Below are positions 5,406 to 48,698 of a stretch of 64,000 nt of DNA, in pieces. This stretch comes from a virus. Under the pieces are notes generated by a model. It searched no databases, had not been told where the DNA came from, and saw only the letters and a program-made list of their open reading frames with translations. The position numbers were made by a program, and so were the translations under genes. The stretch covers positions 1 to 64,000 of the IMG/VR virus record IMGVR_UViG_3300042197_003251. One strand, written 5' to 3'. Within the stretch, counting starts at the first letter, position 1. Every line of letters begins with the position of its first letter.

Positions 5406-6518
5406 CTAATCTTCTTTTACCTTATCCCAAAGTCTAACCGCCTTCCTAAAAAGTTCATCGGCTCTATCGTTAAATCTTTTTTTCCAGTATATGAAAAATT
5501 GTCTTGGGTTATTTCTTATTGAAGGACTTAATCCTCTAAAGTTATTTACAGTAACACCATTTTGTCTTAAAGATTCAGATATATAATTTAAGGCTTCGTT
5601 CCAATTTTCCAAATTTTCCGATACTTCTTGAGCCCTTTTTTGTGAATAAACCAAATCAAAAAAACTTTCAATTTTTGTAATTGAGTCTATCATATCATCA
5701 ACCGAAAAACTTTTTAAAAAATTAATTTCTTTCGATAGTTCAGTTTTTTCAAACTCTCGCATAAAGTCATCATAATCTTTAATACCCTTTCCTTTAAGTG
5801 TATAATAAAGTTGGGGAGCTCTTGCTTGTTGTTCAAATCTTAATGACAAATATAATCTTCGTAAAAATCCATTCCATTCATTATTAATATTACTCCTCAT
5901 AATTTGTTGGAGTGAATTATACGTAGACTCTTTTCCATATCCGACTTTACCTGTCGATTTATTTATTTTAAATAATTGATAAGCATGGAATACTTCATGT
6001 GAAACAACCGCCGATAATTCATTCCTAATTGATTCAAAATCTTTAGTTTGTGATTGTCTCATATGGATTGTAAATTCATATGTACTAATATCATAAACTT
6101 CCCCTTTGGTTTTTAATGTTCTAATTTTAAAATCTTTCGGAACAAAAATATGTGAAGCCTCAATCATCGGGGACTTGTATTTCTTATCATCAAAAAACTC
6201 ATCAGGTAATACTTTAACAACTACAAATATTTTGTTTCTATAAGTTGGAAACTTTCTCCATTCCTCTTTATCGTATTTCGGTGAGTTTTTCAGGTATTCC
6301 CAACTTTCTTTAGGGGAAATTTCAAAACTATACTCATAGCCCTCCAATTCTTGGAATTGAGGTTCGTTAAATTCAAGAACGTCTGGTGCTTGACTTTTAA
6401 TGTTATTTTCAATTACACTAATAATTAAATCAGTATAAATGTGAACGACCATATCAATGTCGTCTGGTACACCTAAAGCTTCGGTTAAAAGAAGTTTATT
6501 TACTTTTTTTAACTTCAT
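5406..6518 (-). CDS. HExxH protein with N-terminal LLLTEA tag
   Basis: The product is 370 aa. The N-terminus MKLKKVNKLLLTEALGV contains L-x-E-A, like T4 internal-protein sequences cleaved by the prohead protease. A zinc-peptidase-like HEVFH (in VVSHEVFHAYQ) lies near residue 175, and the C-terminal half is helical and basic. If the motif is catalytic this could be a packaged metalloprotease; no third zinc ligand can be assigned by eye. The start overlaps the 3' end of the 41-aa gene upstream. The length and the clean HExxH in a helical context are the support for the call. Confidence 0.7.
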   Translation of the reverse strand: MKLKKVNKLLLTEALGVPDDIDMVVHIYTDLIISVIENNIKSQAPDVLEFNEPQFQELEGYEYSFEISPKESWEYLKNSPKYDKEEWRKFPTYRNKIFVVVKVLPDEFFDDKKYKSPMIEASHIFVPKDFKIRTLKTKGEVYDISTYEFTIHMRQSQTKDFESIRNELSAVVSHEVFHAYQLFKINKSTGKVGYGKESTYNSLQQIMRSNINNEWNGFLRRLYLSLRFEQQARAPQLYYTLKGKGIKDYDDFMREFEKTELSKEINFLKSFSVDDMIDSITKIESFFDLVYSQKRAQEVSENLENWNEALNYISESLRQNGVTVNNFRGLSPSIRNNPRQFFIYWKKRFNDRADELFRKAVRLWDKVKED

Positions 6519-6639: not shown

Positions 6640-7184
6640 ATTCAAAAAAGAGTTGGCTTCTCTGTCCGTGTGGGATTATCACGAGCCAACCCTAAGGAGT
6701 AGTTTCCCATAATAGTATTTCTTCGGATATGACTCAAGAGAGTGAGTCCGTAGTAACCATCCACCGAAGACCTATACTCTCACGCCATCGTGCTTGTGGA
6801 TTTGGACATCCTTATCGGACCTCAAGCCTTACAATTAACGATTTGGCGTTACCCTCAGGACATCTTCGCCCTACCACCATAGTTACTTGGCAGTCCCACT
6901 CGGAAGTTAGAGTGTGTATTGTAGAATTGTCCAGTTTTTCTACAACTTGTGGATTACAACACGACCATTTAAAGTCCCTAATCCCCTAAATCCATAATGG
7001 GGAACCCATAATTTAAAGATTCACATAATACCTGACGGAACTTCCCCCTATCAGTTAACTCGTTTATTAGAGTACATATATGTTTCACTTTTGTGTTACC
7101 TCCCCCATAGCCTTGGAGCCTTCTTGCCAGGTTCACACACCATAACGAACAGGTACATTCGTTAATCGTGGGGTCTTTTAGTTT
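6640..7184 (-). ncRNA. Large structured noncoding RNA candidate, about 545 nt
   Basis: No credible protein frame covers this stretch, yet its GC content is clearly above the neighbourhood and it contains many complementary segments. A TATATTTG promoter at 7192-7199 points into it on the minus strand. The 3' end has a stem with GTTGGCT arms (6653-6690) followed by a T run, like an intrinsic terminator. Size and phage context resemble the ROOL class of large phage RNAs, but I could not verify class-specific motifs; tmRNA and RNase P signatures were not found. Confidence 0.6.
6651..6690 (-). terminator. Hairpin and T-run ending the 545-nt RNA
   Basis: On the minus strand GTTGGCT pairs with AGCCAAC across an internal loop, followed by CTCTTTTTT. 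It sits exactly where the high-GC block returns to AT-rich sequence. Confidence 0.6.
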
Positions 7185-7191
7185 ATGAATA

Positions 7192-7199
7192 CAAATATA
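7192..7199 (-). promoter_or_regulatory. TATATTTG promoter of the 545-nt RNA
   Basis: TATATTTG on the minus strand upstream of the noncoding block. Predicted start about seven bases downstream, near 7184. Confidence 0.6.
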
Positions 7200-11797: not shown

Positions 11798-11807
11798 TTA
11801 TTTTTAG

Positions 11808-11879
11808 TAGTCAGAATAGGACTCGAACCTACATCTCCCATTTACAATAATGAGGCGTTACCAATTACGCTACCTGACT
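11808..11879 (-). tRNA. tRNA, probably Thr (UGU), with odd anticodon arm
   Basis: Acceptor AGTCAGG/TCTGACT with A73, D arm GCGT...ACGC and T arm GTAGG TTCGAGT CCTAT are all clear. The anticodon arm fits either CTCAT/ATGGG with an eight-base loop TATTGTAA or a six-pair stem with a six-base loop. The UGU reading aligns with normal Thr tRNAs, but the loop size is non-canonical. Confidence 0.7.
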
Positions 11880-18985: not shown

Positions 18986-20866
18986 TTATTTTGCCGAAAC
19001 TTCCTCAAAATCCACATCCTGGACTTCAGAGTTTGCATCACCTGTCATATTTGAAGCCATATCTTGAGCTTGTTGATACATCTTCATTGAAATATCTTGG
19101 AAGGTCTTATTTGTTTTTTCAACACATTCTTTGATTTTTTCAATGTTCTTGTCGGCGTTTGCCTTTTTAAGTTCATCAAGACTTTCATTAATTTGGGTTT
19201 TTTCTTCTTCTGAAATTTTATCTTCCAAATCTTTTAATGATTTTTCAACTTGGAATACAGTTGCGTCCCCAGTGTTAATTGTTTCAGCTTCTTCTTTTGC
19301 CAATTTATCTGATTCAGCATTTGCTTCAGCCTCTTGTTTCATCTTTTCAATCTCTTCTTTTGATAGTCCTGAAGATGATTCAATTCGGATATTTTGTTTT
19401 TTGTTTGTTCCCTTATCAAGAGCTGATACATTTATAATACCATTTGCATCAATATCAAACGATACTTCAATTTGCGGAACACCTCTCATTGATGGTGGAA
19501 TTCCATCAAGGTGGAACCTTCCGATTGTTCTATTGTCTTTCGCCATTGACCTTTCTCCCTGAAGAACGTGAATTTCAACTGATGGTTGATTATCAACTGC
19601 GGTTGAAAATACTTGGGAAGCTTTGGTTGGAATTGTTGTGTTTGCATTTATAAGTTTTGTAAACACTCCGCCCATCGTTTCAATTCCAAGTGATAATGGT
19701 GTTACGTCAAGAAGAAGAACATCTGTTACATCACCAGCAAGAACCCCTCCTTGAATTGCCGCTCCAAGAGCAACAACTTCATCAGGATTAACTCCTTTTG
19801 ATGGTTCTTTTCCGAAGAATTTCTTAACCGCATCTTGAATTGCCGGAATACGAGTTGAACCTCCAACCAAAATAATCTCATCAATATCGCTGATTTTTAG
19901 ATTTGCATTTGCCAATGCTTTTTTACAAGGTTCAATAGTTCTTTGAACTAATGGGTCAACAAGTTGCTCAAATTTAGCCTTTGTTAATGTTCTAACCAAG
20001 TGTTTTGGAACACCATCAACTGGCATAATGTAAGGAAGATTAATTTCTGTTGATTGTGAAGATGATAATTCAATCTTTGCTTTTTCTGCCCCTTCACGAA
20101 GACGCTGAAGAGCCATTGAATCTTGTGTTAAATCAATACCATTTTCATCTTTAAATTCTGAAACAAGCCAATCAATAATTGACTGGTCAAAGTCATCACC
20201 ACCAAGATGTGTATCACCATCGGTTGATAATACCTCAAACACACCATCACCTAAATCCAAAATGGATACATCGTGAGTTCCACCACCACAGTCAAATACA
20301 ACAATTTTTGAATCTTTTCCTTTCTTGTCAAGTCCATACGCAAGTGCTGCTGCTGTTGGTTCATTAATGATACGTTTTACTGTAAGTCCCGCAATTTCAC
20401 CAGCTTCTTTTGTTGCCTGTCTTTGGGCATCGTTAAAGTAGGCCGGTACTGTAATAACCGCCTCTGTAACTTCTTGTCCCAAATAATCTTCTGCGGTTTG
20501 TTTCATCTTTTGAAGAACAATTGCCGAAATTTCTTGGGGGCTATACTTTTTGTCATCAATTTGAACTCTTGGTGTATTACCCTCACCTTTAACTACTTTA
20601 TAAGGAACTCGTTTTGCTTCCTTTTTTGTTTCATCATAAGATGACCCCATAAAACGTTTAATTGAATTAACAGTTTTATCAGGATTTGTGACCGCTTGTC
20701 TTTTTGCTGGGTCACCAATCTTTCTTTCACCACCTTTTGTAAATCCTACGATTGAAGGGGTGGTTCTTTTTCCTTCACTGTTCGCAATAACTTTAGGTTC
20801 TCCGTTTTCCATAACGGCTACACATGAATTTGTAGTTCCTAAATCTACACCAATAATTTTTCCCAT
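18986..20866 (-). CDS. dnaK: Full-length Hsp70 chaperone DnaK
   Basis: The 626-aa protein has [19 protein letters not shown] at the N-terminus, ATPase motifs [18 protein letters not shown] and [10 protein letters not shown], the linker region [15 protein letters not shown], a full substrate domain and a lid ending [13 protein letters not shown] as in Bacteroidota. The usual GGGTFDVS carries His instead of Phe here. A DnaJ gene is at 47772. A complete Hsp70 is rare in phages; it could assist capsid or replication complex assembly. No GrpE is seen. Confidence 0.97.
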
Positions 20867-24689: not shown

Positions 24690-24799
24690 TTATTTTTATA
24701 GTCCATAGTGTTCACATTTACCACTACGGAAGATTACGACCAGTCAAGTTGTGATTCTTACTTTATGTTGCCCGCAACAGGTGCAATCTACTTCTATAG
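24690..24799 (-). other. Transcribed noncoding tail of the tRNA unit
   Basis: The 110 bases between tRNA-fMet and its terminator have no protein frame. Possible small stems are TGTTGC/GCAACA and TAGTG/CACTA. It is either a processed spacer or a small RNA; no class is recognised. Confidence 0.35.
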
Positions 24800-24872
24800 T
24801 TGCAACTGAAGGATTCGAACCTCCGACCTTCAGGTTATGAGCCTGACGAGCTGGCCTCTGCTCTAAGTTGCG
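24800..24872 (-). tRNA. Initiator-like tRNA-Met (CAU)
   Basis: Acceptor CGCAACT/AGTTGCA leaves a C1-A72 mismatch, the hallmark of bacterial initiator tRNA. The anticodon stem TCAGG/CCTGA carries CTCATAA with CAU. The T arm is GGAGG TTCGAAT CCTTC. Only two of the usual three G-C pairs close the anticodon stem, the third being A-U. No CCA is encoded. The promoter at 24906-24936 is close to consensus. Confidence 0.85.
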
Positions 24873-24984: not shown

Positions 24985-25140
24985 ATGAGACCAAGATTAG
25001 ACGAAACAAAAAAAAGAGTTAAAGTATCAATAACTCTTAGTCAAAAAATTAATAATAAATTAGAAGGAGACATAATTAACAAATCAAAATTAATTGAAAA
25101 ATTATTATCGGATTACTATGGTAAAAAAGATTTGCAGTAA
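24985..25140 (+). CDS. Ribbon-helix-helix protein of an RHH-HNH module
   Basis: The 51-aa protein reads MRPRLDETKKRVKVSITLSQ and then a two-helix segment (IINKSKLIEKLLSDYYG), the RHH/CopG layout. GATATTTATTAATATG is its upstream element. The last 23 bases overlap the HNH start in the +1 frame. The same arrangement occurs at 46480-46632 and 63211-63372. Likely role: repression of the endonuclease operon or target-site binding. Confidence 0.75.
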   Translation: MRPRLDETKKRVKVSITLSQKINNKLEGDIINKSKLIEKLLSDYYGKKDLQ

Positions 25141-25801
25141 ATGTAGTATCGAAAAAAATACTAATGAGTTTCAAAAAAACAAATACTCCAAAGATGGATT
25201 CAGAAGTGAGTGCTCTGAGTGCTCCAAAAAAATAAAGAAACTAAAATCTAAAGAACTTATTAGAGAAGAATCAAAAAGATACAGAGAAAAAAATAGAGAA
25301 AAATTAAAGGAAAATTTCAAAATTTATTATATAAATAATAAGAAAAAAGAAAACGAACGAAGTAAAAAATATAGAGAAAAATTAAAAAACAACAAAGAAA
25401 ATGCGTTACCAGTAAAAAAAGAACCGTCAGTTCCTTGGAGGGTGAAAAACAAAAATTTGTTCAATAATAAAAAAAAAGAAAAATATCAAAAAGATATCAT
25501 CTTTAGGTTATCAACAAATCTTAGAAATAGGTTGAATAATTTTCTTAAAACAAAAGGTTATAATAAAAATAGTAAAACTTTTGAAATTATAGGTTGTTCC
25601 CCTCAACAACTATTAGAACATTTAGAAAACCAGTTTGTACCAGGTATGAGTTGGTCAAATAGAAATGAATGGCATATTGACCATATTATCCCCTTATCTT
25701 CAGCTAAAGATGAATCTGAAATATATAAATTATCTCATTACACAAATTTACAACCGCTATGGAAGGTGGATAATCTAAAAAAGGGTTGTAAGTTAATTTA
25801 A
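25118..25801 (+). CDS. HNH endonuclease of an RHH-HNH module
   Basis: Start at ATG 25118 inside the RHH gene (MVKKICSKCSIEKNTNEF). It has an N-terminal CxxC...CxxC zinc ribbon, a long Lys/Glu helix, then a conserved DNA-binding segment (FEIIGCSPQQLLEHLENQF) and an HNH core EWHIDHIIPLSSA...LQPLW. It is a close relative of the 62610-63230 protein, with the same architecture and partner. Confidence 0.88.
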   Translation: MVKKICSKCSIEKNTNEFQKNKYSKDGFRSECSECSKKIKKLKSKELIREESKRYREKNREKLKENFKIYYINNKKKENERSKKYREKLKNNKENALPVKKEPSVPWRVKNKNLFNNKKKEKYQKDIIFRLSTNLRNRLNNFLKTKGYNKNSKTFEIIGCSPQQLLEHLENQFVPGMSWSNRNEWHIDHIIPLSSAKDESEIYKLSHYTNLQPLWKVDNLKKGCKLI

Positions 25802-25804
25802 CGA

Positions 25805-26690
25805 AGCCTGAGATTACAGCTTTTATTGAGTACCTTTAGAGTCATTATTTTTTCTACTCTTATCCACAAGATTTTGTCTTGTATTACTCATCGCCAATTG
25901 GTTAGGCCAATCAATCCTTGACGATACAACTACTCTCTTACTACTCAGCTCTCTTTGAGAATGCCTTCCCAATTAATCCTTGCGAGATTAGAGGTTTTTC
26001 GTAAAAATACAGTTCAACTTGGGGTCTCACTATGCTCAGAACATCTCTAAGCTATGTGGGCGACTTCCGTTGTACCGTGATGGACACTTTTCCTTTAATT
26101 ATTTGTAATAATTTAAGTTTTGTGTCGTGGATGTGTCAGAGTAGTGGTCCACCGTAAGCTCCGTCTCCTTTTGGGCGACAGAATACTAAACTACTCCGTG
26201 AAATATCCCTATTTCCATACTCTCAGATTACTTCATAAAGTGACCTTGGTAGGTCATCCTTAGGGGTAGTAGCGACACCACTCGTTCTCTACCTTACCTT
26301 TCGGTTTTAAGTACCCTTTGGTATTGGGACCCGCAATTGTGTAGTTGGAGCTACATTTCTTGCTTGGTTCCTATGGGTTATTCTTGTTGGTGTTCCCACC
26401 TCAACCTGACAATCCACTTTGCCAAGTCACCTGACCACTTTCCCTACAGTGTTACCCTCGGTACTAAAGGTCTTGCGATATCCCACTTGTGTACTTGAGT
26501 TCAAATCCCCTTTCGGGTTTTTAAACCGCAACCTCCTCAACACGGGGGAAGTCACTTTATCCTACTTTCGTAGTTTATTTAAAGACCATACACGGCCCAT
26601 TATCGTTTATCAGTTATCATTATCCCGAAGGACTACTTTCACTGAATGGATAATCTAACTTTCAAAGAACTTTTCGGACATTTCCGATTT
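25805..26690 (-). ncRNA. Very large structured noncoding RNA candidate, about 885 nt
   Basis: Roughly 900 bases with no credible protein frame but raised GC and many internal complementary segments lie between an HNH gene and a Nudix operon. A TTTG/TAAATTTG promoter (TAAATTTG at 26698-26705, TTTG about 20 bases upstream) points into it on the minus strand. Size, phage origin and closeness to a tRNA gene resemble the GOLLD class. Class-specific motifs were not verified. Confidence 0.55.
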
Positions 26691-26697
26691 CGTTTTA

Positions 26698-26705
26698 CAA
26701 ATTTA
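26698..26705 (-). promoter_or_regulatory. TAAATTTG promoter of the 885-nt RNA
   Basis: TTTG, 20 bases, TAAATTTG on the minus strand; predicted start near 26690. Confidence 0.55.
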
Positions 26706-47771: not shown

Positions 47772-48698
47772 CTACAATCTGGTGTGTTTAACATATAATC
47801 TGACATACAAGTCCCCATTCTCATTTGGGTAACCTTTTCCTTTAACTTTAAGTGGAACGCTTGTGTCCACAGTTTGTGGCATCTTAATTTTTAGTTCTCC
47901 GTGTGGATGCGGAATTTTAATCTCATCCAAATTCAAATCATTTATTGATAAGAAATTATTAAAAACCAAATCACCGGCGACTTTTTCAAAACCATCTTGT
48001 TGATTAACATTAATTTTGAAAATCATATCTCCAAACATTCCATTTGCAAAATCTCCCATAGATTGCGCTCTAACCAATTGTCCATCAGAAACTCCAACTG
48101 GTAAATTCATGCTTATTGTTTGATGTTCATCAATTCTTCCATCACCTCCGCAATGATTGCAAGTTGATTTAAAATGAAACCCTCTTCCACCACATGCCCC
48201 ACAAGCTGTTTGAATTATGTTTTGCATAAAATGATTTCCAACTCTTTGCATAATCCGGCCAGAACCTCCACAGTTTGAGCAGGTTTGTCTTTCCCCTCCT
48301 TGCCCACCACAAGGGTCACAATTTATTTTTCTTGTAAAATTAACATCAATTTTCTTTCCCAAAAATGAATCAACCGCTCCAACCTGAATGTCCATAACTC
48401 TGTCTGGTGCTCTTCTTTGTTGTTGTCCCCCAAAGATATTTGAAAATATGTCAAACGGATTTCCGCCCCCACCCATATCAAAACCAAACTGACTAAAAGG
48501 ATTGTTGTTTCTATTATCATATTCATTTTTTTTCTGTTCGTCTGACAGAGTTGAATAAGCTTCATTAATTTTTTTAAATACGTTTTCGTCCCCACCTTTA
48601 TCAGGATGAAATTCTTTTGATTTATTTCTAAACGCTTTTTTTATTTCATCTTGTGTTGCGGTTTCCTGAACCCCAAGAATATCATAATATGTTTCCAA
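47772..48698 (-). CDS. dnaJ: DnaJ co-chaperone
   Basis: The 308-aa protein has a J domain with HPDKGGDENVFKKINEAY, a short G/F region, four CxxCxGxG zinc repeats (CDPCGGQG, CSNCGGSG, CGACGGRG, CNHCGGDG) and a C-terminal substrate domain shorter than in cellular type I DnaJ. It would stimulate the phage DnaK (18986-20866) or host DnaK. It is far from dnaK in the genome. Confidence 0.95.
   Translation of the reverse strand: METYYDILGVQETATQDEIKKAFRNKSKEFHPDKGGDENVFKKINEAYSTLSDEQKKNEYDNRNNNPFSQFGFDMGGGGNPFDIFSNIFGGQQQRRAPDRVMDIQVGAVDSFLGKKIDVNFTRKINCDPCGGQGGERQTCSNCGGSGRIMQRVGNHFMQNIIQTACGACGGRGFHFKSTCNHCGGDGRIDEHQTISMNLPVGVSDGQLVRAQSMGDFANGMFGDMIFKINVNQQDGFEKVAGDLVFNNFLSINDLNLDEIKIPHPHGELKIKMPQTVDTSVPLKVKGKGYPNENGDLYVRLYVKHTRL

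Follow-up and report, generated by a model that had tools for sequence, protein, structure and literature searches.

The window that we analyzed (64,000 nucleotides) comes from an IMG/VR virus record of 81 kb. It encodes a structured noncoding RNA of about 545 nt on the minus strand. A first-pass annotation had placed such an RNA at 6640-7184, and these coordinates were nearly exact: BLAST homology with a related phage spans 7184 (the start) to 6656 (the end), and the U-run of the terminator, which follows a long hairpin, is U6 at 6644-6649. The features of the locus are listed below, along with the other large RNA in the window. (A3 is our alignment of the central domain, with 33 distinct rows, and R1 is a model of the 154 positions of that domain, built from 33 members.)

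7192..7199, minus strand: promoter element TATATTTG; the same 8-mer is also found before gene starts elsewhere in this phage
6644..7187, minus strand: structured noncoding RNA, ~545 nt; homology limits 7184-6656; model match of 173 bits; 73 homologous contigs
7144..7175, minus strand: 5' end, with near-invariant GACCCCAC and then a covarying hairpin, AACGAA.../UUCGUU (46 unique 5' domains aligned)
7012..7085 (approximate), minus strand: optional 5' peripheral domain, ~75 nt; present in the window, absent from about half of the members
6853..7006, minus strand: conserved central domain, 154 nt, with five hairpins and two long-range pairings (A3 covariation, R1)
6919..6945, minus strand: hairpin c, UUGUAGAA/UUCUACAA (A3)
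6897..6914, minus strand: hairpin d, CACUC/GAGUG (A3)
6873..6894, minus strand: hairpin e, loop GUAACU; double changes in 5 of 7 pairs
6775..6852 (approximate), minus strand: optional 3' peripheral arm, variable in length and sequence (comparison of members)
6720..6770, minus strand: long hairpin of the 3' domain, UCUUCGG/CCGAAGA; 100% of cells paired, 12 of 13 pairs double-changed
6671..6709, minus strand: pseudoknot 3, UGGGA (6705-6709) with terminator loop UCCCA (6671-6675); 5 of 5 pairs double-changed
6644..6693, minus strand: 3' terminator hairpin, AGGGUUGGCU/AGCCAACUCU, with an inner CGUG/CACG stem and then U6; 13 of 14 pairs double-changed
25805..26198, minus strand: conserved 3' part of a GOLLD RNA; 300 bits versus a cut-off of 150

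Among the 23 sites of TATATTTG in the window, 11 are within 30 nt before the ATG of an ORF of at least 50 aa, versus 5.7% of 2,033 sites for permuted 8-mers. The most common spacing to the ATG is 4 nt. This enrichment and this spacing imply that this phage truly uses TATATTTG as a promoter element. Given the same spacing as at the genes, the transcript of the RNA is expected to start near 7187, or 4-5 nt past TATATTTG. TAnnTTTG is a promoter element of Bacteroidota; TATATTTG fits this type, which is our clue to the host. (The sigma factor of the phage has no relative above 60% identity among cultured phages, with the best-ranked hit at 38%. A search with the neighboring protein at 5406-6518 found no relatives.)

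The body of the RNA is raised in G+C, as had been noticed from the sequence (0.44 in the central 154 nt versus about 0.3 in the surroundings). Minimum-free-energy folding of the candidate gave z = -1.1, which is uninformative by itself, so the proof of structure has to be comparative. Compensatory changes in related phages, which had been proposed as a check, turned out to be abundant and beyond what shuffled alignments give. Double substitutions are present in 48 of the 74 scored base pairs, and about 97-98% of cells pair. For the central domain (A3), 97.8% of cells are in standard pairs, 18 of 38 pairs changed on both sides, and the covariation score is 0.278, versus 0.157 +/- 0.006 for shuffles. 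For the 3' domain (alignment A4, 30 rows), 96.6% of cells are paired, 30 of 36 pairs have double changes, and the covariation score is 0.645, versus 0.228 +/- 0.012. For both alignments, 0 of 500 shuffles reached the observed paired cells, double-changed pairs, double-changed cells, or covariation score. The shuffle control carries a caveat about the relatedness of the sequences. This caveat is answered by a slid control and by the presence of up to five pair types per position: when the partners in A3 were moved by 1-3 columns, pairing fell to 37-47%. The helices and pseudoknots also recur in divergent members. The alignments clearly point to a fold that is preserved by evolution.

There are three predicted pseudoknots or loop contacts, of which two covary strongly and the other (pseudoknot 2) covaries weakly. 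Each can form within one molecule. In pseudoknot 1, the loop of hairpin c (GGACA, 6928-6932) pairs with a downstream UGUCC (6858-6862). The alternatives across members are GGACA/UGUCC, GAACA/UGUUC, and AGACA/UGUCU, with GAUU/AAUC in the divergent members L212 and L214. In pseudoknot 2, the loop of hairpin d (CUUC, 6903-6906) pairs with GAAG (6864-6867), which immediately precedes that UGUCC. This contact is mostly invariant in A3, with a double change at one pair; co-changes are seen in L212 (CCUCA/UGAGG) and in L155 (CCUUU/AAAGG). In pseudoknot 3, whose partner strand is a few tens of nt upstream of the terminator loop, the pairs take the forms CG, UA, GC, and AU. We also considered whether the first hairpin, through its palindromic loop, could offer a kissing site for a dimer, and rejected this because the site is not conserved across members.

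Outside of the central domain, there are two peripheral arms, each of which is either present or missing as a whole in a given member. L160, L176, and L213 carry another sequence of similar length (GATTCCGAAAGGACTCG...) in place of the optional 5' arm. In L172, L206, and L211, an unrelated conserved segment (GAGGAAATGGTGAAAAGAGTA...GGACCAAAGTACAAGA) takes the place of the optional 3' arm, as if the domain had been swapped. The long hairpin of the 3' domain encloses GACUCA/UGAGUC and a conserved strand, GGAUGGUUACUA. The hairpin and T-run reported at the left end of the RNA is borne out as a long hairpin followed by U6, with arms that covary across relatives. The form of this terminator hairpin is kept across members even where its arms are fully replaced; reading by eye, we found the same type of hairpin and a matching upstream strand in L146, L161, L169, L170, L212, and L214.

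To find relatives, we searched IMG/VR phage contigs with DNA patterns from conserved stretches and with covariance models. Successive pattern searches yielded 17 truly homologous contigs, then 43 more, and then 13 more, for a total of 73, on contigs of up to ~321 kb. A later pattern scan of IMG/VR gave zero additional homologs, and one pattern that we ran against 84,980 genomes from GTDB had only five chance hits. When we took an exact pattern from the 5' domain of the window copy, it had zero matches, because the relatives differ at a few bases. We rejected other pattern hits as due to chance (L135, L179-L183, L200, L201, L209, L215, L216, L220-L229, L231, and L232). Model R1 scores the window copy at 173 bits and the divergent L212 and L214 at 82-83 bits, and each of 50 RNA-bearing records has a single copy by this model.

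The distribution of the RNA is patchy. Among records related by the sigma factor, a search for the RNA found three strong matches. When the window is compared to a strong relative, only the RNA aligns (7184 to 6656), except for short chance words, so the neighbors of the RNA differ between the two. With R1, only these three of the 50 sigma-factor relatives had convincing hits, while 27 of the 50 carry GOLLD; we judged the weak R1 hits in other relatives (8-16 bits) to be chance. Some relatives that have GOLLD, and some records of over 270 kb, lack the new RNA, so it is dispensable in this group of phages. (GOLLD itself is found very often across this uncultured clade, including in records of 270-297 kb without the new RNA.) The carriers are large uncultured phages, probably of Bacteroidota, and the RNAs of the family are about 400-550 nt long.

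The RNA does not correspond to a known family. Across 4,227 Rfam families at E ≤ 10, the candidate had no match beyond one chance hit, to RUF1 (14 bits versus a cut-off of 70). When the whole window was searched with Rfam 15, only GOLLD (25805-26198, 300 bits) and three tRNAs were found. Five loci with diverse relatives had no Rfam match over the RNA at E ≤ 3. The first-pass annotation had pointed to ROOL and had proposed a covariance search. This search indicates that the candidate is not ROOL: the ROOL model (RF03087, cut-off 99.1 bits) had no match in the window at E ≤ 10, in the 50 RNA-bearing records at E ≤ 1, or in four large RNA-bearing records at E ≤ 10. As a positive control, the same search as for the four large records found the ROOL of plasmid pMP118 at 130.4 bits. 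What stands of the resemblance to ROOL is the size, the tRNA-island setting, and the several pseudoknots, but not the identity. The GOLLD model (RF02032, cut-off 150 bits) did not match the candidate, and its sole match in the window is at 25805-26198. At the sequence level, what the candidate shares with ROOL is limited to chance words, and the same is true of GOLLD, where these reach ~15 nt. BLASTN of the candidate against cultured phages and plasmids gave nothing meaningful.

The claim that the RNA is noncoding survived the tests that had been named for it: neither Rfam nor ARAGORN models for tmRNA, RNase P, or tRNA matched the candidate, and we found no ORF that is conserved across homologs. 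In 14 members, the longest ORFs on the RNA's strand encode 19-68 aa and are at differing positions. Homologs also differ by frame-shifting indels, and the two longest ORFs of the window candidate have no match to a Pfam family. The RNA makes no protein. That this RNA family exists is nearly certain. We found no description of it in Rfam 15 or in the literature that we searched (subscription papers were outside of this search), and it appears to be previously undescribed. In kind, it belongs with the large ornate phage RNAs: its members have hundreds of nucleotides, several pseudoknots, and a tRNA-island setting.

Most copies sit in tRNA islands that share their strand. In 37 loci that we scored, every tRNA called by ARAGORN is on the same strand as the RNA. 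There is a tRNA within 5 kb of the RNA in 31 of the 37, and a tRNA starts just 5-12 nt after the terminator in 17. The remaining six have none within 5 kb, in some cases because the contig ends. In L205, L206, and L211, a tRNA is a few nt upstream of the RNA, and in 19 contigs (such as L128), the stop codon of a small protein family is 8-9 nt before the RNA. Such copies have no room for their own promoter directly ahead of the RNA. Thus, the proposal that the RNA has its own promoter is credible for the window copy but does not hold for many relatives. The small upstream protein is conserved, acidic, and ~120 aa long, with no match in PHROG. The window lacks it (by tblastn), and in the tRNA-island subgroup we did not see it ahead of the RNA; the RNA therefore does not need it as a neighbor. 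The window copy is unusual in having no adjacent tRNA; the nearest is at 11.7 kb. The window also has a tRNA with an odd anticodon loop (11807-11879; ARAGORN reports tRNA-??? with anticodon "tg") beside a normal tRNA-Glu. In L146, the new RNA is followed at ~0.5 kb by a freshwater-1 RNA (RF02979; 996-1056, 61.9 bits, which is below the cut-off of 72, E = 1e-12), which is inside the tRNA array. Elsewhere in the window, we identified by eye a DnaK-like chaperone gene (626 aa, 18986-20866) and a DnaJ-like protein (47772-48698).

The full-size GOLLD RNA of the window is at 25805-26700 on the minus strand. Its 3' end directly abuts a convergent gene at 25094-25801 (zinc-finger or HNH-like, by eye), and there is a tRNA-Met at 24799-24872. 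This GOLLD is the second large RNA that the first-pass annotation had implied. That annotation had regarded such a pair in a single phage as unusual, which is wrong for this group: GOLLD co-occurs in 22 of the 50 RNA-bearing records. In all 22, as in the window, GOLLD and the new RNA are on the same strand, and they are about 5 to 29 kb apart. Because they coexist in these records, they are separate genes.

What does this RNA do? ROOL is a homo-octameric RNA cage, and GOLLD expression rises at lysis. With moderate confidence, and by analogy to these two, we propose that the new RNA self-assembles with its own copies into a stable and abundant structural complex. It would be transcribed on the strand of the tRNA array, with its own promoter in cases such as the window copy and otherwise within a gene or tRNA transcript, and the transcript would end at the conserved hairpin terminator. 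It folds into a compact multi-domain RNA (5' domain, central hairpins, and 3' domain): the loops of hairpins c and d dock downstream, on two strands that neighbor each other, and the terminator loop of the 3' domain docks back on the strand just upstream. During infection, copies may assemble into the complex, which might hold or protect phage tRNAs or engage ribosomes. Our comparisons establish the family, its fold, its ends, and its setting, whereas we infer the expression, the abundance, the self-assembly, and any cargo. An RNA that works as a particle would fit with the rigid conserved core and its disposable outer arms, with the lack of a conserved protein product, and with the location in tRNA islands. 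Self-assembly is the leading mechanism because GOLLD and ROOL, the closest phage RNAs that we found in size, setting, and complexity, form RNA-only cages in vitro; both are encoded near tRNA islands and have complex pseudoknotted folds (PMC12286853). The co-occurrence with GOLLD on one strand also speaks for this reading. Points that count against it are that the loop contacts can all be intramolecular, that the window copy and six of the 37 scored relatives have no tRNA close by, and that the RNA is dispensable in the group.

There are two main rivals. The RNA could fold alone and act as a monomer on the transcript of the tRNA array, in regulation or processing, rather than as a particle. For instance, it could be a terminator or spacer that sets the ratio of tRNA to mRNA, or a platform for tRNA-processing enzymes. 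The tRNAs 5-12 nt past the terminator in 17 of 37 loci, the members that directly follow a tRNA, and the fact that all three loop contacts can be intramolecular are consistent with this. But ~450 nt with near-invariant unpaired stretches is more than a spacer needs, and the window copy is intact without a tRNA beside it, so we consider this rather unlikely. It also seems unlikely, and a little more so, that the RNA serves as a scaffold for a protein of the phage or of the host. This would resemble OLE, a cellular RNA that is bound to Oap proteins and the membrane and has bS21 as another partner. The candidate partner would possibly be the ~120-aa protein, given that the same family ends 8-9 nt before the RNA in 19 contigs; the protein's absence from the window and from what we saw of the tRNA-island subgroup, and its lack of a PHROG, argue against this.

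If the RNA were catalytic (splicing or cleaving itself, or acting on other RNAs to process them), this might explain why unpaired motifs such as GGAUGGUUACUA and GUAACU are strongly conserved. However, there was no match to a ribozyme, intron, or RNase P family, and the RNA was never seen interrupting a gene, so we view catalysis as improbable. Finally, a divergent ROOL or GOLLD would be found in the same kind of phage and would share the setting, size class, and architecture. This is very improbable: neither model matches the window candidate or five diverse members, ROOL is silent at E ≤ 1 to 10 while the pMP118 control scores 130 bits, and GOLLD is present separately in the same genomes.

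If the self-assembling complex is correct, then the RNA could, more tentatively, represent a third class of phage RNA that forms cages or particles and that evolved independently, which would be deployed with GOLLD in the same infection. RNA-built compartments would then be a general strategy of phages that is tied to tRNA arrays. Because both are in one genome, the roles of GOLLD and the new RNA are probably not simply interchangeable.

To our knowledge, very few RNAs that are so large and conserved are known in phages. An independent case, in the same setting and with unrelated sequence, means that features that are common to GOLLD, ROOL, and the new RNA point to a shared job. Our alignment and model also supply base pairs that can be tested for the structure of the RNA.

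Our best reading is that the RNA forms a class of its own among the large ornate phage RNAs, new and separate from both GOLLD and ROOL. Like ROOL (RF03087), it is a large phage RNA of ~550 nt with tRNA islands nearby, multiple pseudoknots, and a variable periphery, but there is no similarity in sequence or covariance model. Like GOLLD (RF02032), it is found in the same phages and on the same strand, near tRNAs, with a conserved core and variable parts, but GOLLD is about 870 nt here and is unrelated in sequence and model. By its fold and setting, the new RNA resembles the cage-forming ROOL and GOLLD. One inter-chain kissing loop of ROOL was first detected as covariation (PMC12286853). OLE is also ornate, at ~600 nt, but it is bacterial and the new RNA has no Rfam match to it; OLE is a dimer in cryo-EM (PMC12286853). 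Staphylococcus phage K has two abundant lncRNAs beside its tRNA genes, which were likened to GOLLD and ROOL by their location (PMC9241854). The new RNA, compared by sequence, lacks meaningful BLAST similarity to any record in the phage collection.
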